A DNA stretch of 50,750 bases from Candidatus Gastranaerophilales bacterium (GTDB lineage: Bacteria; Cyanobacteriota; Vampirovibrionia; Gastranaerophilales; Gastranaerophilaceae): the NCBI GenBank assembly GCA_947630535.1, contig CANRHZ010000008.1, positions 1 to 50,750 on the forward strand. The letters run 5' to 3'. Both the position numbers and the translations under genes were made by a program. Under the pieces are notes generated by a model, which saw only the letters and a list, made by a program, of their open reading frames with translations, made no database searches and was not told where the DNA came from. Positions 2,942-50,258 of the stretch are shown here, piece by piece. Each line of letters opens with the position of its first letter. Position 1 is the first letter of the stretch.

Positions 2942-3381
2942 TGGCATTTAATTTTGTTGCAAATACGGCCGCTTTACTATCTTTAGCTTCGTCTGCAATT
3001 GATGCGGGTCAAAAAGGCAAAAGCAAAGCATCAAAAAATGCAAGATGTGAAGTTGCAATAAAAGATATAAAAACTTACGAAGGTGATTCAACCCTCAATT
3101 ATTCAAGTCAAAAACATAATGAAATGAAAAAAATGGTAAGCAATTCCGATTTCTTAACGGGATTTTATAAAGCAAAAGGTGCAATATCAGGCTTTTTTGG
3201 AGGAGCGACCGAAAGTGCGGCAAAGAACTTACCTTCTATAGGGTTTGCTGCATTCACTCTCGGAACTAAAAATAAAACACTAAAGACAATAGGACTAACA
3301 GGAACACTTCTTAGCATGGTTATTGATTTTATTAAAAACGGAACAAATCTTTTTGCAAAGAAAAATGTGATAGAAAAATAA
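2941..3381 (+). CDS. small protein of unknown function
   Basis: 146 residues that I do not recognise. The start overlaps the stop of the preceding gene as TAATG, so it is very probably translated from the same mRNA. The N-terminus has a mildly hydrophobic Ala/Leu/Ser helix at residues 5-20. A Lys-rich middle follows. Two Gly/Ala/Leu-rich hydrophobic stretches (about 98-112 and 118-132, near GLTGTLLSMVIDF) could associate with membranes. It ends in a basic tail. It sits between the two paralogous HEAT-like genes, which suggests a shared role, but no function can be assigned. Confidence 0.65.
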   Translation: MAFNFVANTAALLSLASSAIDAGQKGKSKASKNARCEVAIKDIKTYEGDSTLNYSSQKHNEMKKMVSNSDFLTGFYKAKGAISGFFGGATESAAKNLPSIGFAAFTLGTKNKTLKTIGLTGTLLSMVIDFIKNGTNLFAKKNVIEK

Positions 3382-3533
3382 AAATGTAAAAAAATGTAAA
3401 GGTATAAAATCAAGTAATATCAAGAAAAAAAATAAAAAAACTATGAAAACTCAACTAAGATAGCAATTATAAATATTCAGAATACTTAAAAATTACGTAA
3501 AAAGAAAATAATTTTACAAAGGAGATATAAAAT

Positions 3534-4646
3534 ATGATGCAACAAGTAGGAGCAAATGGTTATATGCAACCGACACCGAGTGCAAGTGCAGTTAATATTC
3601 AAATTTTTGAACCGAAAGCGTATGCAGCTCCAAATGAAAATCAATATCAAAACCCGATATACAGATATCCCGAACAGTCTATATATACGCAGCCAATCTC
3701 TAATCAATACGGACAATTTGCTCCTATAGAACAACCTGTTGTAAATTATCAACCAAACCAGCAAATGCCGGCTCCCGTTTTAACTCCGAATAATACTCAA
3801 GCCGAACAACCTCAAGCTCCCGAATCTAATCAGGCCGCACCAAATGTTGATGTAGTTCAGCCGACAATGCAGGATCAAAACGGAATAGATGTTAATTCCT
3901 TGGTTCAGGGGCTTCAATCAAATGATAACAAAGTTCAGGAAGATGCAATTACAAAAATCGCAAATTTAAGTCAGGGTGAACCCGAGATGCGTAATGCCGT
4001 ATTATCGGAACCTGTTATGAAGGGCTTAGCCGATATTATAAAGAAAGACACATCAAACCTTGAAGGCCCGACGGAAGCTCAAACCGCCGCTATAAACAAA
4101 GCAGCATCAGGTGCCGAATTGACACCCGAAGAAGCAGCACTTGTCGATAAACTTGCTCCAAAAACTGCGGCTGATAAAAACAGAGTAATTGCTATCTTTA
4201 CTCTTGGTCTGCTTCAAAAGAACCAGAGAGATGAAATAGACACATTTAATCAAACTCAGGGAGCAAACAATCAACTTCCGCAGTTAAAAATCAATGATTT
4301 AATCGGGTACAATGAAATAGAAAATGCAGCAAGAAATGATAACGAAAAAGAAGTTAAACTTGCAGCACTACAGGCTCTTGCATACGTTGCAAGACCGGAA
4401 GATGCGGATGTTTTAACACCAATTCTTCAAAATGCGGCAAACGACACGGAACCTATGATTCAACAAGCTGCAAACGAGGTTTTAACCAACCTCGGTTCAA
4501 ATCCTGTTGAAGCTAAACAGGAAGAACCTGCTATTGACCCTTCAAAAATGTCAAGAAAAGAAAGAAAAGCTTACGAAAAAGCTATGAAACAACGTGCAAA
4601 AGAAGAAGCTGAACAACAAAAAAATAACGAACAAAAAGTTGCATAA
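3534..4646 (+). CDS. Pro/Gln-rich protein with HEAT-like helical core (paralog B)
   Basis: 370 residues of unknown function, paralogous to 2015-2941. The shared block PSASAVNIQIFEP lies at residues 15-27, followed by a P/Q/N/Y-rich linker to about residue 125. A helical region from about 130 to 335 has HEAT-like units, for example VKLAALQALAYVARPEDADVLTPIL and the following IQQAANEVLTNLG. The C-terminus is a highly charged Lys/Glu/Gln coiled-coil-like tail (RKERKAYEKAMKQRAKEEAE). There is no signal peptide or transmembrane segment. A good Shine-Dalgarno (AAAGGAG) precedes two adjacent ATG codons at 3534. A terminator hairpin follows at 4675. The family probably acts as a protein-interaction scaffold, but that is inference from the fold type only. 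Confidence 0.78.
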   Translation: MMQQVGANGYMQPTPSASAVNIQIFEPKAYAAPNENQYQNPIYRYPEQSIYTQPISNQYGQFAPIEQPVVNYQPNQQMPAPVLTPNNTQAEQPQAPESNQAAPNVDVVQPTMQDQNGIDVNSLVQGLQSNDNKVQEDAITKIANLSQGEPEMRNAVLSEPVMKGLADIIKKDTSNLEGPTEAQTAAINKAASGAELTPEEAALVDKLAPKTAADKNRVIAIFTLGLLQKNQRDEIDTFNQTQGANNQLPQLKINDLIGYNEIENAARNDNEKEVKLAALQALAYVARPEDADVLTPILQNAANDTEPMIQQAANEVLTNLGSNPVEAKQEEPAIDPSKMSRKERKAYEKAMKQRAKEEAEQQKNNEQKVA

Positions 4647-4674
4647 AATACGGAATAAAATATAAAACAATATG

Positions 4675-4705
4675 CCGCAAACCTGATTTTTAGGTTTGCG
4701 GTTTT
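4675..4705 (+). terminator. intrinsic terminator after HEAT-like paralog B
   Basis: A perfect 10-bp stem, CCGCAAACCT (4675-4684) with AGGTTTGCGG (4692-4701), has a 7-base loop and is followed by TTTTAATTT. It also covers the stop codon of the convergent histidine kinase, so the 3' ends of the two genes share the hairpin. The minus direction lacks a U-tract. Confidence 0.85.
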
Positions 4706-5850
4706 AATTTGAACTTTATAGTAAATTCAGCCCCTTTATTTAAAGAGGATTTTAGCGATATTGTTCCGTTTTGCATTTTTACAAGTTCATTGGTAATTGT
4801 AAGCCCGAGGCCTGTGGATGAACAGGTTTTTGTATATATGTTATCGAGTTGAACAAACTTTTCAAAAATCTTTTTGTGGTCTTTTTTGTCTATGCCTATT
4901 CCAAAATCTTTAACCTTTATTATGGCGCAATCCTTTAATTTTGAGGTTGAAACAACCACTTTGGAATTTTTGTGGGAAAACTTAATTGCGTTACCCAAAA
5001 GATTGAACATAATTTGCCTGAACTTTTGCTCGTCCGTTAATATATTATCTTTTAGTTTCAGATTTGTTTCAATTTTTATCCCTTTTTCATACCCTAAGGG
5101 TTCAATTACATTTATGGTTTCTTTAATGGTCTGATTTATGTCGGTTTCTTTTAAATTGAGCTTCATTGCTTTAGATTCTATTTTTGTCATGTCTAAAATA
5201 TCATTAATAAGACCCGTTAAATGAATGGATGAAGCTAAAATTTTATTTATAAAGTTTTGTTGTTTGTCGTTTAATTTTCCCGTCAAGCCCTCTTTCATTG
5301 CGGATGAAAAGCCTATTATTGAGTTTAAGGGGGTTCTTAGTTCATGGGATATGTTAGATAAAAATTCCGTCCTTATTTTGTCAGTTTCAATAAGTTTTTC
5401 ATTTTGTTCTTTTAATTTTTTTGTGGCCTCATTTTTTTGTAAAATTGCATCCTGCAAAATTAAAAGCTGATTTTGAAATATTTTTGAAATTTCGTAGTCT
5501 TTAATTCTGTTTGAATACTTTTTTGAAATTGTATCCAACTTTTGTTTTTCTTCTTTTTTAAACTTTTCTTTTCTCAATAACAAAAAATACCCCATAGTAT
5601 TACCAAGTATTTTAACCGGTATTTTTAGTGTATAAAAACCATTTGGCTTATCTGTAGTTAAAGTGTCTTTTGGGATTTCTTTTGAACAAGAGTAAGAATA
5701 TTTCAGGCGGTATGATTTTATACTTTTATGAAAAAAACCGCACAACAAAAAATCAATCTCTGATTTTAGTTCCATAAAAGAGTTTGTGTAAAAAGTATTT
5801 TCATCCTGTTCAACATTTAAAAAAGCGGATGTAATTAAGTTTGTGTCCAT
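4690..5850 (-). CDS. cytoplasmic sensor histidine kinase
   Basis: 386 residues. The N-terminal ~110 residues have no membrane segment and look like a divergent GAF/PAS-type sensor. A coiled coil at about 120-160 leads into HisKA, with the H-box FLSNISHELRTPLNS and phospho-acceptor His169. The HATPase_c domain follows, with N-box (FNLLGNAIKFSH, about 282-293), G1 (KDFGIGI, about 314-320) and G2 (TGLGLTI, about 346-352). It autophosphorylates and should pass phosphate to a response regulator. No receiver-domain protein is in the window. The neighbour 5893-6384 has only a winged helix. There is no Shine-Dalgarno before the ATG, and a good promoter ends 7 bases upstream, which suggests a leaderless mRNA. 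Confidence 0.93.
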   Translation of the reverse strand: MDTNLITSAFLNVEQDENTFYTNSFMELKSEIDFLLCGFFHKSIKSYRLKYSYSCSKEIPKDTLTTDKPNGFYTLKIPVKILGNTMGYFLLLRKEKFKKEEKQKLDTISKKYSNRIKDYEISKIFQNQLLILQDAILQKNEATKKLKEQNEKLIETDKIRTEFLSNISHELRTPLNSIIGFSSAMKEGLTGKLNDKQQNFINKILASSIHLTGLINDILDMTKIESKAMKLNLKETDINQTIKETINVIEPLGYEKGIKIETNLKLKDNILTDEQKFRQIMFNLLGNAIKFSHKNSKVVVSTSKLKDCAIIKVKDFGIGIDKKDHKKIFEKFVQLDNIYTKTCSSTGLGLTITNELVKMQNGTISLKSSLNKGAEFTIKFKLKPQT

Positions 5851-42524: not shown

Positions 42525-42557
42525 AAAAAGGAGGAATTAATTTTCCTCCTTTTTTTT
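42525..42557. terminator. bidirectional terminator between nifJ and the RelA/SpoT-like gene
   Basis: AAAAAAGGAGGAA pairs with TTCCTCCTTTTTT across a short loop, with A-run and T-run flanks. The hairpin encodes the last residues (KKKEEN) of the convergent minus-strand gene, so coding and termination overlap. Confidence 0.92.
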
Positions 42558-43691
42558 AAATGCGGTCGGATTATTTTTTTTATTATCAATTTGTTTTTTC
42601 AATTTTGCAATATTGTTGAAATCAAGTGCTTCCGGTATGTTCAAATCGTCAGGTATCGGCAAGAAACCTTCATTTCTTCCTTTTTTGTGTTTTGCTTTGC
42701 TTCTTTCATAGGAATATGCTCTTTTTATATATTCAAGGTATTCATTAACCGCCCTGTCGTTTTTTAAAAGATTGTTAAACATAGTCTGTATGGGCTTATA
42801 TTTTTTGTCTACACCCTTTTTTGCCATACATTTATAACAGATATCTTCCAGTTTTTTAAATCTGTCGACATCAAGTCCTATTATTTGGATTTCTCCTTTT
42901 ATTCCCATATCCAAAGGAGCCGTTAATATGTGTAAGCCAAGATATCCTGAATCTCTGGGTTCATCTTTATAGGTACAAAGCGGGTTTCCGTTACTTCTTG
43001 CCGTGTCAACAAATTTATTAATTTTACCCCTTGATGCGTAATTCAGTGAACTCTTTTCCTGACCGTGGTTTTTAACCTGTTCAACCCCAAGCCTTCTTGC
43101 TTTAATTGTTTCTATAAGCTTTCCTATAACATAGTTTCCCGAATCCGTATTTGACCCTGAAATAATAATTTTTGCTCCCACTATATCACTGAGCTTATCT
43201 TTTGCGTCTTTTTTAGTTTTTATGTGCTTTGCGCCCATCTTTTCCGAGATTGATTTCGGACTTTTTCTTCTTGTAATTATCATGACAATGGGATTATTTT
43301 TATCTTTACTGTTTTGATTAATGGCAAGCGTCTCTAATTCTTCACGATTGGGAGCGTCAATATCTATAACGGGAATGCCGCCAAAGGTTTGTTTAAGTAT
43401 AAACCTGAGTTTGTTCATTGCATAGTCTGCTTCTTGATATAAACCTTTAGCCAGTTTTAAATTTACGGCTTCAGACCTTGATAGGATTTTATCCTGATAA
43501 CTTGTAGGTATTTTTTCAACATCCGTAGGTTGATTTTCAGGTTTTATCAATGTTTCCGCTTTTTTATTTGCTCCAAATGAAACCGTATCAAACGGAAGCG
43601 GAGCTAAATTCGTAAATTTAAAACAAACTTTGTTTATGGGGTTGATGTTTGGTCTTTGAAAAACATTTAAAAACGAGCCGTTAATTTTCAT
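42537..43691 (-). CDS. stand-alone RelA/SpoT-like nucleotidyltransferase domain protein
   Basis: 384 residues. The central region matches the (p)ppGpp synthetase fold: RRKSPKSISEKM (141-152, the R-x-K-S-x-x-S type ATP-site motif), DIVGAKIII (169-177; most enzymes have Arg where this has Lys), SGYLGLHI (248-255, the substrate-stacking Tyr and LH) and EIQII (267-271, the acidic catalytic motif of EIQIRT). There is no HD hydrolase, TGS or ACT domain. It could be a small alarmone synthetase or a relative that modifies tRNA or other targets. The N-terminus has DTVSFG (35-40), a module shared in type with two other window proteins. The long flanks (1-100 and 300-384) are not recognised. Confidence 0.72.
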   Translation of the reverse strand: MKINGSFLNVFQRPNINPINKVCFKFTNLAPLPFDTVSFGANKKAETLIKPENQPTDVEKIPTSYQDKILSRSEAVNLKLAKGLYQEADYAMNKLRFILKQTFGGIPVIDIDAPNREELETLAINQNSKDKNNPIVMIITRRKSPKSISEKMGAKHIKTKKDAKDKLSDIVGAKIIISGSNTDSGNYVIGKLIETIKARRLGVEQVKNHGQEKSSLNYASRGKINKFVDTARSNGNPLCTYKDEPRDSGYLGLHILTAPLDMGIKGEIQIIGLDVDRFKKLEDICYKCMAKKGVDKKYKPIQTMFNNLLKNDRAVNEYLEYIKRAYSYERSKAKHKKGRNEGFLPIPDDLNIPEALDFNNIAKLKKQIDNKKNNPTAFKKKEEN

Positions 43692-45665: not shown

Positions 45666-46999
45666 TTAATATTGAAGTGCATGAGCGAATATTTCGCCCA
45701 ATTTTTTGTTGTATTGCCTTCCGTCTGAGTCGGCAAAGGCATTTTTAAAATGGCTTAAGGGACTTCCGTCCGTTGAATAAGACGGGTTTGTCATCATTAT
45801 ATGGTGTGTATTTGTGTCGTACCTTAGGGGAAATATATCGTTTGTTTGCATAAAAGAGGGAAGTTTATCCGATGCTCTGTAAAATGCAAAAAGCCCTGTA
45901 TTAACCCTGTTTAGTCTTTGTTCGTATGTTATTCCCCCTTCATAGTTGTCATTTTCGACTTCCACTCCGGGAGCGTATTCTCTTGAATACTTGTTTTCTT
46001 CGGACAAATGCCTTACTTTATAGAAATCATCCCCCGTTACAAAGTCGGTTCCTGTTGTAAGGCCCATATTCCTGTATCTTTCAAAGTCGTCCGTGCTTTT
46101 TTCTCCGACAAAGCTCAAAGCGTTATTATTACTTCTTTTTCTTATTTCATAAAGTATGTATTGCATCTGTTCATATTCGGGAAGCGCCCCTACACCCGTA
46201 TAATTGGCGCAATCGTAGCCCCCTATATGTTTAGCGGAATCTATGAACATGGATTCAAACCCCAATTTGACAAGTTTGGCGCATTCATCTATAAACAGTT
46301 CCTGATGTTCTTTTTTGCACCAATCAAAAGTTTCATCTTCTTTGTTTGGATGTGAAACTTTTATTTGGTCTGCCGATATTACCATTCTAAAACCCGTTTT
46401 AATGCCTCTAAACCAAGCAAGTTCATTAAAAGCCCTTAACTGTTCTTCGGGGGTTAAATCTATATCATGGGAAATTATGTTGTCAGAATACCCCGCATTT
46501 AATTTTATTCCGTAAATTGAATTTTCTTCCCACGGGGCTTTTACATAGCCGTCCCCATAAATATTAGGGAAAATTTGAGAAATAATTATACAGTTTGCCC
46601 AGCTGAAAGCAGAAGGCGGAACGGCGGGAAGAAGTTTAATCATTCCAAAAATTCCGTTTTTACACCTTTCATTGTGCATTTCGGCCAAGTATCTGTTGTT
46701 TATCTCTATATAATTTGCAAGCCTTCCCACTTGTCGCCATAGTTTGGAGAGTGCATATTTTTTGGAAATTTCTTATAAAAAATTCCTCCCTCGGACAAAT
46801 TTACGGTTTTATTTATGCTCTCTTTTATTGAATCTTTCATAAAATCATAAGGGACAACATTTCCCATCCATTTTTTCATATACGCTCTCCCTATCCCTTC
46901 AAAGGCGCTATGAATAAAATCGTTGTCATATTTAAATTCATTGTTTTCATTCAACGAAAAAAGCAATTTATCTATTAATGTTAAATCTTCTTTTATCAT
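45666..46999 (-). pseudogene. frameshifted unknown protein, possible glycosidase-like TIM barrel
   Basis: Two adjoining frames belong to one gene. The 5' frame starts at ATG 46999 and ends at 46706. The second runs from about 46736 to 45666. At the junction the product reads ...NYGDK then GRLANYIEINNRYLAEMH, which a single missing base (AAGTG for AAxGTG) explains. Restored length is about 445 residues. The long part has WEENSIYGIKLN, HDIDLTPEEQL, GIKTGFRMVISADQIK and FESMFIDSAKHIGGYD. These resemble strands and loops of amylase-like barrels, but I cannot assign catalytic residues. TCAAAA-type short repeats directly precede the ATG. It could be a real frameshift, phase variation or a sequencing error. 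Confidence 0.65.
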
Positions 47000-47210: not shown

Positions 47211-50200
47211 ATGAAAGTAAATTCTATCGACAGATACTATTCTAATTTTAAAAATTTAGGTTTAAATAAAACAAAACAAAATGATGCAACAAATCCGATT
47301 ATGGTAAAACCCTTAGGCAACGATTCGATAACTTTTCGGGGGGGGGGGGTAAGCTATTCGGCAAGTCATAAAGCGAAAATCAAGCAACTTGAAAATGGTT
47401 ATACCGTTAATGCCATGGAAGTAAAAAAGATAGCCGAATCTATTGCAAAAAAATATAACTGCAACATTTTGGAAGATTGGCATTTATACCTTGCATCCCT
47501 TGTATATTTGAATAAAAAAATAAACGATATAGATACAAATTCCATGTCTAACGATGAAATTTTCAGACAATCCATGCTGGGTCAGGTAATCTTTATGGCT
47601 GATAATAATCCCGATATAATTACCGATGACAGATTAAGAAAGAAACTTTCTGTTACTTTAAAAAAACATATTAAAAAAACTGTTAAAACATTTGCAAAAC
47701 AAGATTCGAATGAAAAAAATAAGAAAAACTTTTCTCTGTTTAGAAAACCTGTACCCTATTCAAAAGAAACCATAACCAATTTATATTCAACCTTAATTCA
47801 AAACTCGACCATTGAGTCTTTAGATGTCGTTCCCGAGAGTTTATTTTTGGCTGCCGGATACAATTCAAAGGATAGAGCCCTATCAAAAGAAGCAGACACT
47901 CTTGATAAAGATATTAAAAAAATACTTATGGTAGATTCAACGGACAAAAGGAAACAACATTTGAGCTTTTACGATTCAAAGGCGGATGTACTGTGGAAAA
48001 ATGTGTCTTTGGGTAAAAATACCATAATTCAATGCGATTCGAGCAATCAAGAATCTATGAAACATCTTACTTCAAGTTTTGCAAACCTCATAAAAAAACC
48101 TGATCAAAAATACTCGGGAATTGACCCAGAAAATACGGAAATTATTTCACTAAACCATTTTGCAAGCACAAACTTTTTAAATGATCTAATACATGACAAA
48201 GTTAAGGAAGCAAAGAACGGGAAAAGGGTTGTTATAATGGGCGATTTGTATAAAATGATGTCCCTTGACAACAACATGATTTCACTTAACCTTGTTAACA
48301 AACTGGGTAATCTGGAAAATTCCAATGTATCTTGCATTTTTACAATAACACCCGAATCATATTACCTTAACACTGCAAAAGGTGCGCTGCTTGCACCATT
48401 TTTAAATTCTTGCTCGGTTCAAACGCTCCCTGAAATTAATGTGGCAGATGCAATGAAATACTTGACGGATGAAAAAGGGATTGAATATATAAAAAGCGAA
48501 ACGGGTAAAGATTTTGATTCCGATACCATAAAAGCTGCAATAACAATGTCCTATAGAGATGATGATATTTATCCTGATAAAGCAATCAAGCTTTTAAGGA
48601 GTGTTTCAAATTATTATCCCGATAAGGAAAAATACGAACCATCCGATGTTGAAAACTTTATAAAAGAAACAAAAGGATTAAACGAAATTCAAGGAAGGGA
48701 TGATGACGAGACAATCGTTTATGATACAGGAAAAGGATTGAATGATATTGTGGGTTCTCCCATGACAAAGGCACAGGCAGAGAGTGTAGTAAAGCAAATC
48801 AAATCAGGTACCATAAATACTAAAGGATTTCTTATATATGCAGACAACTATTCCAGTTATGGCGGCGGCAGAAGGCATGTGGCGGAAGCCATTGCCGGAG
48901 AAGCAGGTATTCCTTTGATATCGGTTAATGCTCAGGAATTTGCCTTAAAAGATATTGATACCCTTTCTCAAAATGCAGGCATGTCTGAAATTAAAATAAA
49001 AAAACTCATGTCTATGGCAAAATCATCTGCCATGTCAAATCCCAATAAAACGGCCATGATATTTATTGAAAATTTTGATAATTTTGGTTCCGATCCTATG
49101 TATGGTCTTTCTTCAATATATGAGCAAAAGGCATTTTCACAACTTTTATATGAAATGGATAAAGTCAGAGAAAATGATGATGTGAATATAATTGTGGCAG
49201 GTTCAGTTAATATGCCGATGATAATCAACGAAAACATAAAAAAACCGTATAAATTTTTAGATAAAATTATAGTACACCAGCCTCAAGATTCACAACAAAG
49301 AAAAGAGGTCATGGAATATTACATAGACAAAATGAATCTTAAAATCAAAGGGGACGATAAAGAAAGAAACGAAATTTTGAATAACTTATCGGATACTACG
49401 ATGGGATTTAGCTTTGTTGATATTATTTATCTCCTTGAAACGGCAAAAAGAGTTTCAACTGAAAAGAATAAAGAGAAAATTGAATTTTCAGACTTAGTTG
49501 AAGCATTCCTTCAAACGACGACGGGAAGGGCTAATCCCGCTTATTTGTCGGATGAAGATAAGAAAATAATCGCCTCTCACGAGGTTGGTCATGCAATTAC
49601 TTCGGAAATTATGAGCAATATTGCAAGAAATCAAGGAATACCCTGGTTTTTACCTTCCGAATTAAATTTTATAACTCTTGATCCAAGAGGCTGGTATAGC
49701 GGAGCAACCTATTATAAAAATTTGGATAAAGACGAAAAGAATTTTGAAACGGTCATGGCCAATTTAGTTTATTCTTACGGCGGAAACTCGGCTGAAGATA
49801 CTATATATGGTATGAACGGTTCCTGGGGCATATCGGGAGATATGCATCAGGTAGATCAGATGGCAAGACTTGCCGTTCTTAATATGGGTATGGGCCCGAG
49901 AACAGGTGTAAGAAGAATACCGACAGATGAAAACGGCGATATTCAGGTTTATTCTCAAAACAAATTGCAAAATATTGAAGATGATATTGATGCTTTCACT
50001 TACGGGGCAAAAATAATTTCAGATGCAATTATAGAGGCATATAAAGACTTTATTATTGAATTTACCGAAAAATATTATTCAAAAGTAGGAAGCGGGAATT
50101 GTATAATTAGTGCTTCCACGCTTAGAGAAGAACTTGAAGATTGGAAGAATGGTTTATCTGCTCTTGATAAACTAAAGCTTGCTAAACTTGAAAACAATAT

Positions 50201-50258
50201 AATAAAGACCATGAACAAAGTAAAATATGGTAAAAAAATCACACCAATTAAAGTTTAA
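47211..50258 (+). CDS. ClpB-like/FtsH-like double pseudo-AAA protein with M41 zinc protease domain
   Basis: 1015 residues, no membrane segment. Residues 1-45 are a polar tail with DSITFRGGG (38-46), encoded in part by a 12-G run. Residues about 205-490 resemble the first AAA module of ClpB/ClpC: VSCIFTITPESYYL (373-386) matches the sensor strand and DTIKAAITMSYRD then YPDKAIKLLRSV (438-465) the lid, but the P-loop is lost. Residues about 505-745 resemble the FtsH AAA core (HVAEAIAGEAGIPLISVNA, 556-574). Walker A is NYSSYGGGRR and Walker B FIENFD, so the ATPase is probably inactive. Residues about 765-1000 resemble peptidase M41, with HEVGH (790-794) and a third ligand candidate Asp877. It is probably a cytoplasmic metalloprotease with scaffold-type AAA modules. 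Confidence 0.75.
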   Translation: MKVNSIDRYYSNFKNLGLNKTKQNDATNPIMVKPLGNDSITFRGGGVSYSASHKAKIKQLENGYTVNAMEVKKIAESIAKKYNCNILEDWHLYLASLVYLNKKINDIDTNSMSNDEIFRQSMLGQVIFMADNNPDIITDDRLRKKLSVTLKKHIKKTVKTFAKQDSNEKNKKNFSLFRKPVPYSKETITNLYSTLIQNSTIESLDVVPESLFLAAGYNSKDRALSKEADTLDKDIKKILMVDSTDKRKQHLSFYDSKADVLWKNVSLGKNTIIQCDSSNQESMKHLTSSFANLIKKPDQKYSGIDPENTEIISLNHFASTNFLNDLIHDKVKEAKNGKRVVIMGDLYKMMSLDNNMISLNLVNKLGNLENSNVSCIFTITPESYYLNTAKGALLAPFLNSCSVQTLPEINVADAMKYLTDEKGIEYIKSETGKDFDSDTIKAAITMSYRDDDIYPDKAIKLLRSVSNYYPDKEKYEPSDVENFIKETKGLNEIQGRDDDETIVYDTGKGLNDIVGSPMTKAQAESVVKQIKSGTINTKGFLIYADNYSSYGGGRRHVAEAIAGEAGIPLISVNAQEFALKDIDTLSQNAGMSEIKIKKLMSMAKSSAMSNPNKTAMIFIENFDNFGSDPMYGLSSIYEQKAFSQLLYEMDKVRENDDVNIIVAGSVNMPMIINENIKKPYKFLDKIIVHQPQDSQQRKEVMEYYIDKMNLKIKGDDKERNEILNNLSDTTMGFSFVDIIYLLETAKRVSTEKNKEKIEFSDLVEAFLQTTTGRANPAYLSDEDKKIIASHEVGHAITSEIMSNIARNQGIPWFLPSELNFITLDPRGWYSGATYYKNLDKDEKNFETVMANLVYSYGGNSAEDTIYGMNGSWGISGDMHQVDQMARLAVLNMGMGPRTGVRRIPTDENGDIQVYSQNKLQNIEDDIDAFTYGAKIISDAIIEAYKDFIIEFTEKYYSKVGSGNCIISASTLREELEDWKNGLSALDKLKLAKLENNIIKTMNKVKYGKKITPIKV
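47338..47349 (+). repeat. 12-G homopolymer tract inside the protease gene
   Basis: A run of 12 G, codons 43-47 of the ClpB/FtsH-like gene (Arg-Gly-Gly-Gly-Val). In an AT-rich genome such a run is conspicuous. Loss or gain of one base would truncate the protein within a few dozen codons. Confidence 0.95.

Follow-up and report, generated by a model that had tools for sequence, protein, structure and literature searches.

A soluble Clp–FtsH hybrid metalloprotease with degenerate ATPase domains in Gastranaerophilales

Introduction

FtsH is a membrane-anchored, ATP-driven protease, and the FtsH enzymes studied depend on ATP hydrolysis. In this study, a 1015-residue protein from a genome (1.85 Mb) of Candidatus Gastranaerophilales, a group of gut Melainabacteria, was found to combine a Clp-type front half, an FtsH-type AAA domain and an M41 zinc protease in one chain that lacks a membrane anchor, and the clade to which it belongs has lost the residues of the ATPase motor whereas the protease site is intact. 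This anatomy, namely the domain order, the lost motifs and the intact protease site, is almost beyond doubt. The protein belongs to peptidase family M41 and should be filed neither as FtsH nor as Clp. The broader reading is evenly balanced between acceptance and rejection: that this is an undescribed soluble Clp–FtsH hybrid family, so far confined to Gastranaerophilales, in which one large motor-free clade is a second, independent LonC-like origin in the zinc-metalloprotease branch, possibly addressed through an N-terminal leader specific to the lineage. If this holds, the clade parallels LonC in an unrelated peptidase family. Furthermore, its ATPase-intact soluble cousins would allow a direct test of which parts of an AAA protease need the motor, and the clade would bear on how selection keeps pseudo-ATPase rings.

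The gene lies in a stretch of 50,750 nucleotides (the window), which is one contig (C8) of the 1.85-Mb assembly. The open reading frame starts with ATG, with a purine-rich stretch just 5' of it. A chance frame or a pseudogene was ruled out by full-length open homologues of 43–49% identity with dN/dS well below 1. The features of the gene are listed in Table 1.

Table 1. Features of the hybrid protease gene (positions in the window)
Feature	Residues	Position	Strand	Basis
Complete gene, motorless Clp–FtsH hybrid protease	1–1015	47211..50258	+	ORF call, full-length homologues
Disordered leader, MKVNSI start, SITFRG near end	1–48	47211..47354	+	pLDDT about 30–39
Helical region	52–166	47364..47708	+	Family profile against PDB, AF2 model
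ClpC/ClpB-type NBD1 without Walker A; lid kept (YPDKA motif)	235–491	47913..48683	+	Profile, AF2, fold search
CDSSNQES at expected first P-loop position	275–282	48033..48056	+	Homologue alignment
FtsH-type AAA domain, catalytically degenerate	508–770	48732..49520	+	Pfam, NCBIfam, alignment, Foldseek against FtsH
GGGRR, Walker A, Lys to Arg	551–555	48861..48875	+	Clade-A alignment
FIENFD, Walker B, catalytic Glu to Asn	618–623	49062..49079	+	Clade-A alignment
KPYKF, replacing the FtsH RPGRF arginine-finger motif	678–682	49242..49256	+	Clade-A alignment
M41 peptidase domain	779–1005	49545..50225	+	Pfam, alignment, fold search
HEVGH, zinc-binding and catalytic motif	790–794	49578..49592	+	HExGH in 87 of 87 clade-A rows
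Asp, third zinc ligand, invariant in alignments	877	49839..49841	+	Aligned with Asp of FtsH NDIERATEIAR

The Clp-type front half

The leader, in which Phe42 is nearly invariant (alignment A5), is followed by a helical region that begins (residues ∼60–95) with a match to one ClpC N-domain repeat. When the family profile of residues 52–234 was compared with the PDB, ClpC N-domains came out on top, at 1.4e-6 for the whole sequence and at weak values of 0.05–0.9 for single repeats; Pfam gave no Clp_N match in single proteins. Neither the leader nor this putative N-domain unit had been recorded in the initial annotation, which was made from the same DNA.

The next module was proposed there to be ClpB/ClpC-like, and a real NBD1 fold is indicated by several lines of evidence. 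The family profile of residues 235–508 retrieved Clp-type ATPases only, down to an E value of 0.15, with a best PDB match of 3.8e-7 and the NBD1 of ClpC, ClpA and ClpB among the matches. Pfam gave no match to this module in the query protein alone; in one homologue (L021) the ClpB-type lid, AAA_lid_9, scored 28.4 bits against a curated cut-off of 22.8 bits. In addition, the AF2 model of residues 50–508 (pLDDT 89, pTM 0.85) found its best PDB folds in ClpC, ClpA, ClpB and Hsp104, several of which span the whole half. The NBD1 fold with its lid is present and the NBD1 Walker A and B motifs are not; in a motif census, a P-loop or GKT was absent from the first AAA domain of every clade that carries it. 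A Pfam match to DNA_pol_D_N at residues 325–358 scored under its cut-off and was dismissed.

The FtsH-type core and its lost motor residues

Pfam places AAA at residues 551–681 (1.2e-10) and Peptidase_M41 at residues 779–931 (6e-16, 59.3 bits against a cut-off of 29.9), in the order first proposed for this protein. In the full-length family profile the FtsH match begins at residue 508 (E = 3.6e-42); since the Clp match lies before this point, the fusion junction is placed near residue 508. The full-length AF2 model (pLDDT 82) matches apo-FtsH over about 480 columns (Foldseek), and its pTM of 0.48 makes the relative placement of the domains uncertain. The best NCBIfam match is FtsH (TIGR01241 equivalog), at 121.4 bits against a cut-off of 600 that is not reached. 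A simple divergent FtsH was ruled out by the Clp-type front half and by the separate clade described below.

The motifs quoted in the initial annotation are all present: CDSSNQES begins at residue 275, NYSSYGGGRR ends as GGGRR at residue 555, FIENFD begins at 618 and HEVGH at 790. Their conservation was surveyed in 87 aligned clade-A rows, in which a few genes appear twice because they were taken from two sources; 85 cover the AAA motif region. In all 85 the GTGKT of FtsH is replaced by GxGR, and all 85 lack the catalytic Glu of Walker B, mostly with Asn in its place. In most rows RPGRF has become a K[PS].KF-like motif, and the FVG pore loop is replaced in clade A by a longer KDxDxx loop. By contrast with these losses, HExGH is kept in 87 of 87 rows and Asp877 is invariant, so that HExxH and a third metal ligand stand within an M41 fold, as membership of family M41 demands. 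The earlier description of two catalytically degenerate AAA modules beside an intact protease site is therefore borne out across the whole clade.

The degenerate FtsH-type domain is under strong purifying selection. Its dN/dS is 0.035–0.087 in the closest well-covered gene pairs, on which this statement rests with saturated pairs left out, and is usually equal to or lower than that of the M41 domain; values this low indicate that selection has kept the domain.

The predicted absence of a membrane anchor also held, with no transmembrane helix found in the query: the maximum 19-residue Kyte–Doolittle hydropathy is 1.07, compared with 2.99 in the genome's own canonical FtsH, an intact protein on contig C14 with a strong transmembrane segment. 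A canonical ClpC is encoded in the genome as well (contig C9, L147:13370–15810). It is split into two frames of 632 and 180 residues, whereas relatives have about 820–850 residues, which may be an assembly error or a real break. Contig C35 of the same genome encodes a protein of about 460 residues with several Clp_N repeats (138.7 bits) and no ATPase (L152:13299–14687), and similar frames of 450–500 residues occur in many relatives.

Clades, origin and distribution

A tree of the AAA–M41 region was built from 23 clade-A, six clade-B, three clade-C and nine canonical FtsH rows. The hybrids split from canonical FtsH (100/100), and clade A is monophyletic (100/100) on a long stem (1.44), which amounts to one change of state. 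The branching order of clades B and C is not resolved by the tree. Both are distant from clade A (about 20–25% identity), both lack transmembrane helices as judged by hydropathy, and most of their members carry the Clp-type first domain. Clade B keeps GTGKT and DE, and clade C has GSGKT/S with DD/ND. These motor-intact cousins were absent from the initial annotation, which had looked to homologues with intact GKT and DE motifs as counter-evidence to its reading. Such homologues exist, but not within the query's clade; as the intact motifs are limited to distant clades B and C, they speak of ancestry and the degeneracy of clade A stands. Because the FtsH module of these distant relatives keeps GxGKT and DE, the simplest account is a single loss of the motor within a hybrid family that was soluble by then. 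In the simplest order of events, fusion of an FtsH core to a degenerate ClpC front half and departure from the membrane came first, and one lineage later lost the motor.

Three genomes of a single genus (G046, G054 and G055) carry both a clade-B and a clade-C hybrid, as the pairs L021/L033, L035/L032 and L022/L034, which possibly form hetero-oligomers.

The clade-A protease is a single-copy gene of patchy presence. Its front half was found in 35 of 244 sampled genomes of the phylum, all in the query's family, and full-length clade-A proteins also occur in another family of the same order (G040 and G045, from a separate genome sample). When GTDB was scanned with two short peptide patterns, one genome being taken per species, 171 relatives were returned; distant relatives elsewhere can escape these patterns. 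The titles of the best 80 of the 171 almost all read Gastranaerophilales, Cyanobacteria or gut bacteria without a name, apart from a few odd labels on MAGs; Melainabacteria were formerly filed under Cyanobacteria.

Comparison with known systems

The core from residue 508 shares with FtsH the AAA–M41 arrangement, HExGH with the third-ligand Asp and the same fold. Unlike FtsH, the protein is without a transmembrane segment, has lost the Lys of Walker A, the Glu of Walker B, the arginine fingers and the pore motif, and carries an extra Clp-type front half. With ClpC and ClpB (Hsp100) it shares a putative N-domain unit and a first AAA domain with a lid; however, this first domain has no P-loop, an FtsH-type AAA domain replaces the second Clp AAA domain, and the protease is carried in the same chain. 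No description of such a Clp–FtsH hybrid architecture was found in the literature, in agreement with the earlier remark that no named family has this domain order.

In its proposed mode of action the protein resembles LonC (MtaLonC, TTC1975), a soluble AAA protease that has lost its motor and whose clade stands apart from those of its active relatives (PMC3391209). LonC is nevertheless a serine–lysine Lon protease of an unrelated peptidase family without a Clp front half, and the query has no Lon S16 protease domain, with AAA and M41 alone above the Pfam cut-off; the likeness is thus one of analogy only. The plant FtsHi pseudo-proteases and the Ycf2–FtsHi complex are likewise degenerate FtsH descendants kept by selection. 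FtsHi, however, has lost the protease site (PMC8197885, PMC9020784), whereas the query has lost the motor and kept the protease.

Proposed mechanism

The loss of the motor residues together with retention of the cutting site across whole groups of relatives suggests a motor-free protease. For a protein that keeps its zinc site but has neither motor nor anchor, the simplest model is a self-compartmentalised protease that would act on unfolded or flexible proteins independently of ATP, the AAA rings serving as scaffold and gate; this model is held with slightly more confidence than doubt. From these features we infer a hexamer, proteolytic activity, the class of substrate and independence of ATP. 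The protein probably assembles as a hexamer; its M41 domains would make up the ring that cuts, and its two degenerate AAA layers a fixed scaffold and an entrance. Substrates or adaptors would be recruited by the Clp-type N-domain, and unfolded, partly unfolded or flexible proteins would enter without being pulled and without ATP hydrolysis. MtaLonC is a precedent: this Lon relative lacks both canonical AAA motifs and ATPase activity, forms a hexamer and, in the absence of ATP, degrades proteins that are unfolded but not those that are folded (PMC3391209). Hexamers can also arise from the cytosolic part of FtsH, or even from its protease domain alone (review PMC9020784). For M41 enzymes, a search of the literature gave no precedent of activity on proteins in the absence of a motor.

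The conserved GxGR might still bind nucleotide. It is conceivable, if rather unlikely, that the pocket is a nucleotide sensor, binding ATP or ADP that it does not hydrolyse and thereby opening or closing the protease. The glycine loop and the next helix are strictly kept, as seen in the invariant GxGR and the very low dN/dS of the second AAA domain, and a LonC hexamer binds six nucleotides and hydrolyses none of them (PMC3391209). However, the Lys, the Mg-coordinating Thr/Ser, the Walker B Glu, the sensor-1 region and the arginine fingers have all changed, and the Arg of GxGR could instead fill the phosphate site. We infer, and prefer, a role of the AAA modules as scaffold and gate.

A borrowed motor is less probable still. 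In a mixed ring, an ATPase-competent FtsH or ClpC would supply the motor; in plants, active FtsH is known to form complexes with FtsHi subunits whose protease is dead (PMC9020784), canonical FtsH and ClpC are both encoded in the same genome, and clades B and C occur together in the three genomes named above. The query is soluble, however, whereas FtsH is membrane-anchored, the two share about 30% identity in this genome, and the extra Clp front half has no match in FtsH. In addition, no ATPase-intact clade-B copy was found in the clade-A genomes of the sample that includes G040 and G045.

An atypical active ATPase, in which the Arg stands in for the Walker A Lys, is highly improbable: this Arg is strictly conserved, but the domain has at the same time lost the Glu of Walker B, its arginine fingers and the pore motif. 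Least credible of all is a processing protease specialised for leader-tagged proteins of the lineage (leader [ILV][ST]F.G), although these genomes carry a similar leader on unrelated proteins and the protease has one too: the leader is also found on family members with intact motors, and the protease is patchy in its presence.

Gene neighbourhood and leader-bearing proteins

Comparison of 81 loci revealed no conserved neighbour genes around the protease, the best neighbour being present at 12 of 81, and indicated no operon or pathway partner. A phage or defence gene was ruled out, with no relatives on viral contigs and no PADLOC matches; phage records match the protease over the AAA–M41 core only, with 25–28% identity in the best rows. 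Adjoining the gene, at window positions 45666–46999 on the reverse strand, are two overlapping frames of 354 (GTG start) and 97 residues without a Pfam match, which may be a single broken gene. In one MAG (L067) the protease gene itself is in two pieces, one at 3113–3562 with the leader and the start of the N-domain and a separate frame at 3783–5420 with the remainder.

A disordered-looking leader with an M[KR]I..I-like start and an [ILV][ST]F.G end is found both in the protease family and on unrelated proteins, and is possibly a sorting tag. Its bearers include an adenylate kinase, a RelA/SpoT domain, ankyrin, HNH and DEAD helicase proteins and unknowns. A loose pattern counted 11 proteins outside the family with both leader parts, of which at least one (L142) looks like a chance match and another (L067) is a piece of the broken family member described above; a control genome had none with both parts. 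The two parts co-occur above expectation (Fisher p = 7e-4, uncorrected for duplicates or pattern choice). Leader-bearing loci are found in the window at 42537–43691 on the reverse strand and elsewhere at L046:1656–2375, L055:1527–2579, L069:4759–6183, L073:11532–13751, L120:8888–11584, L144:15621–16406 and L145:10247–12031.
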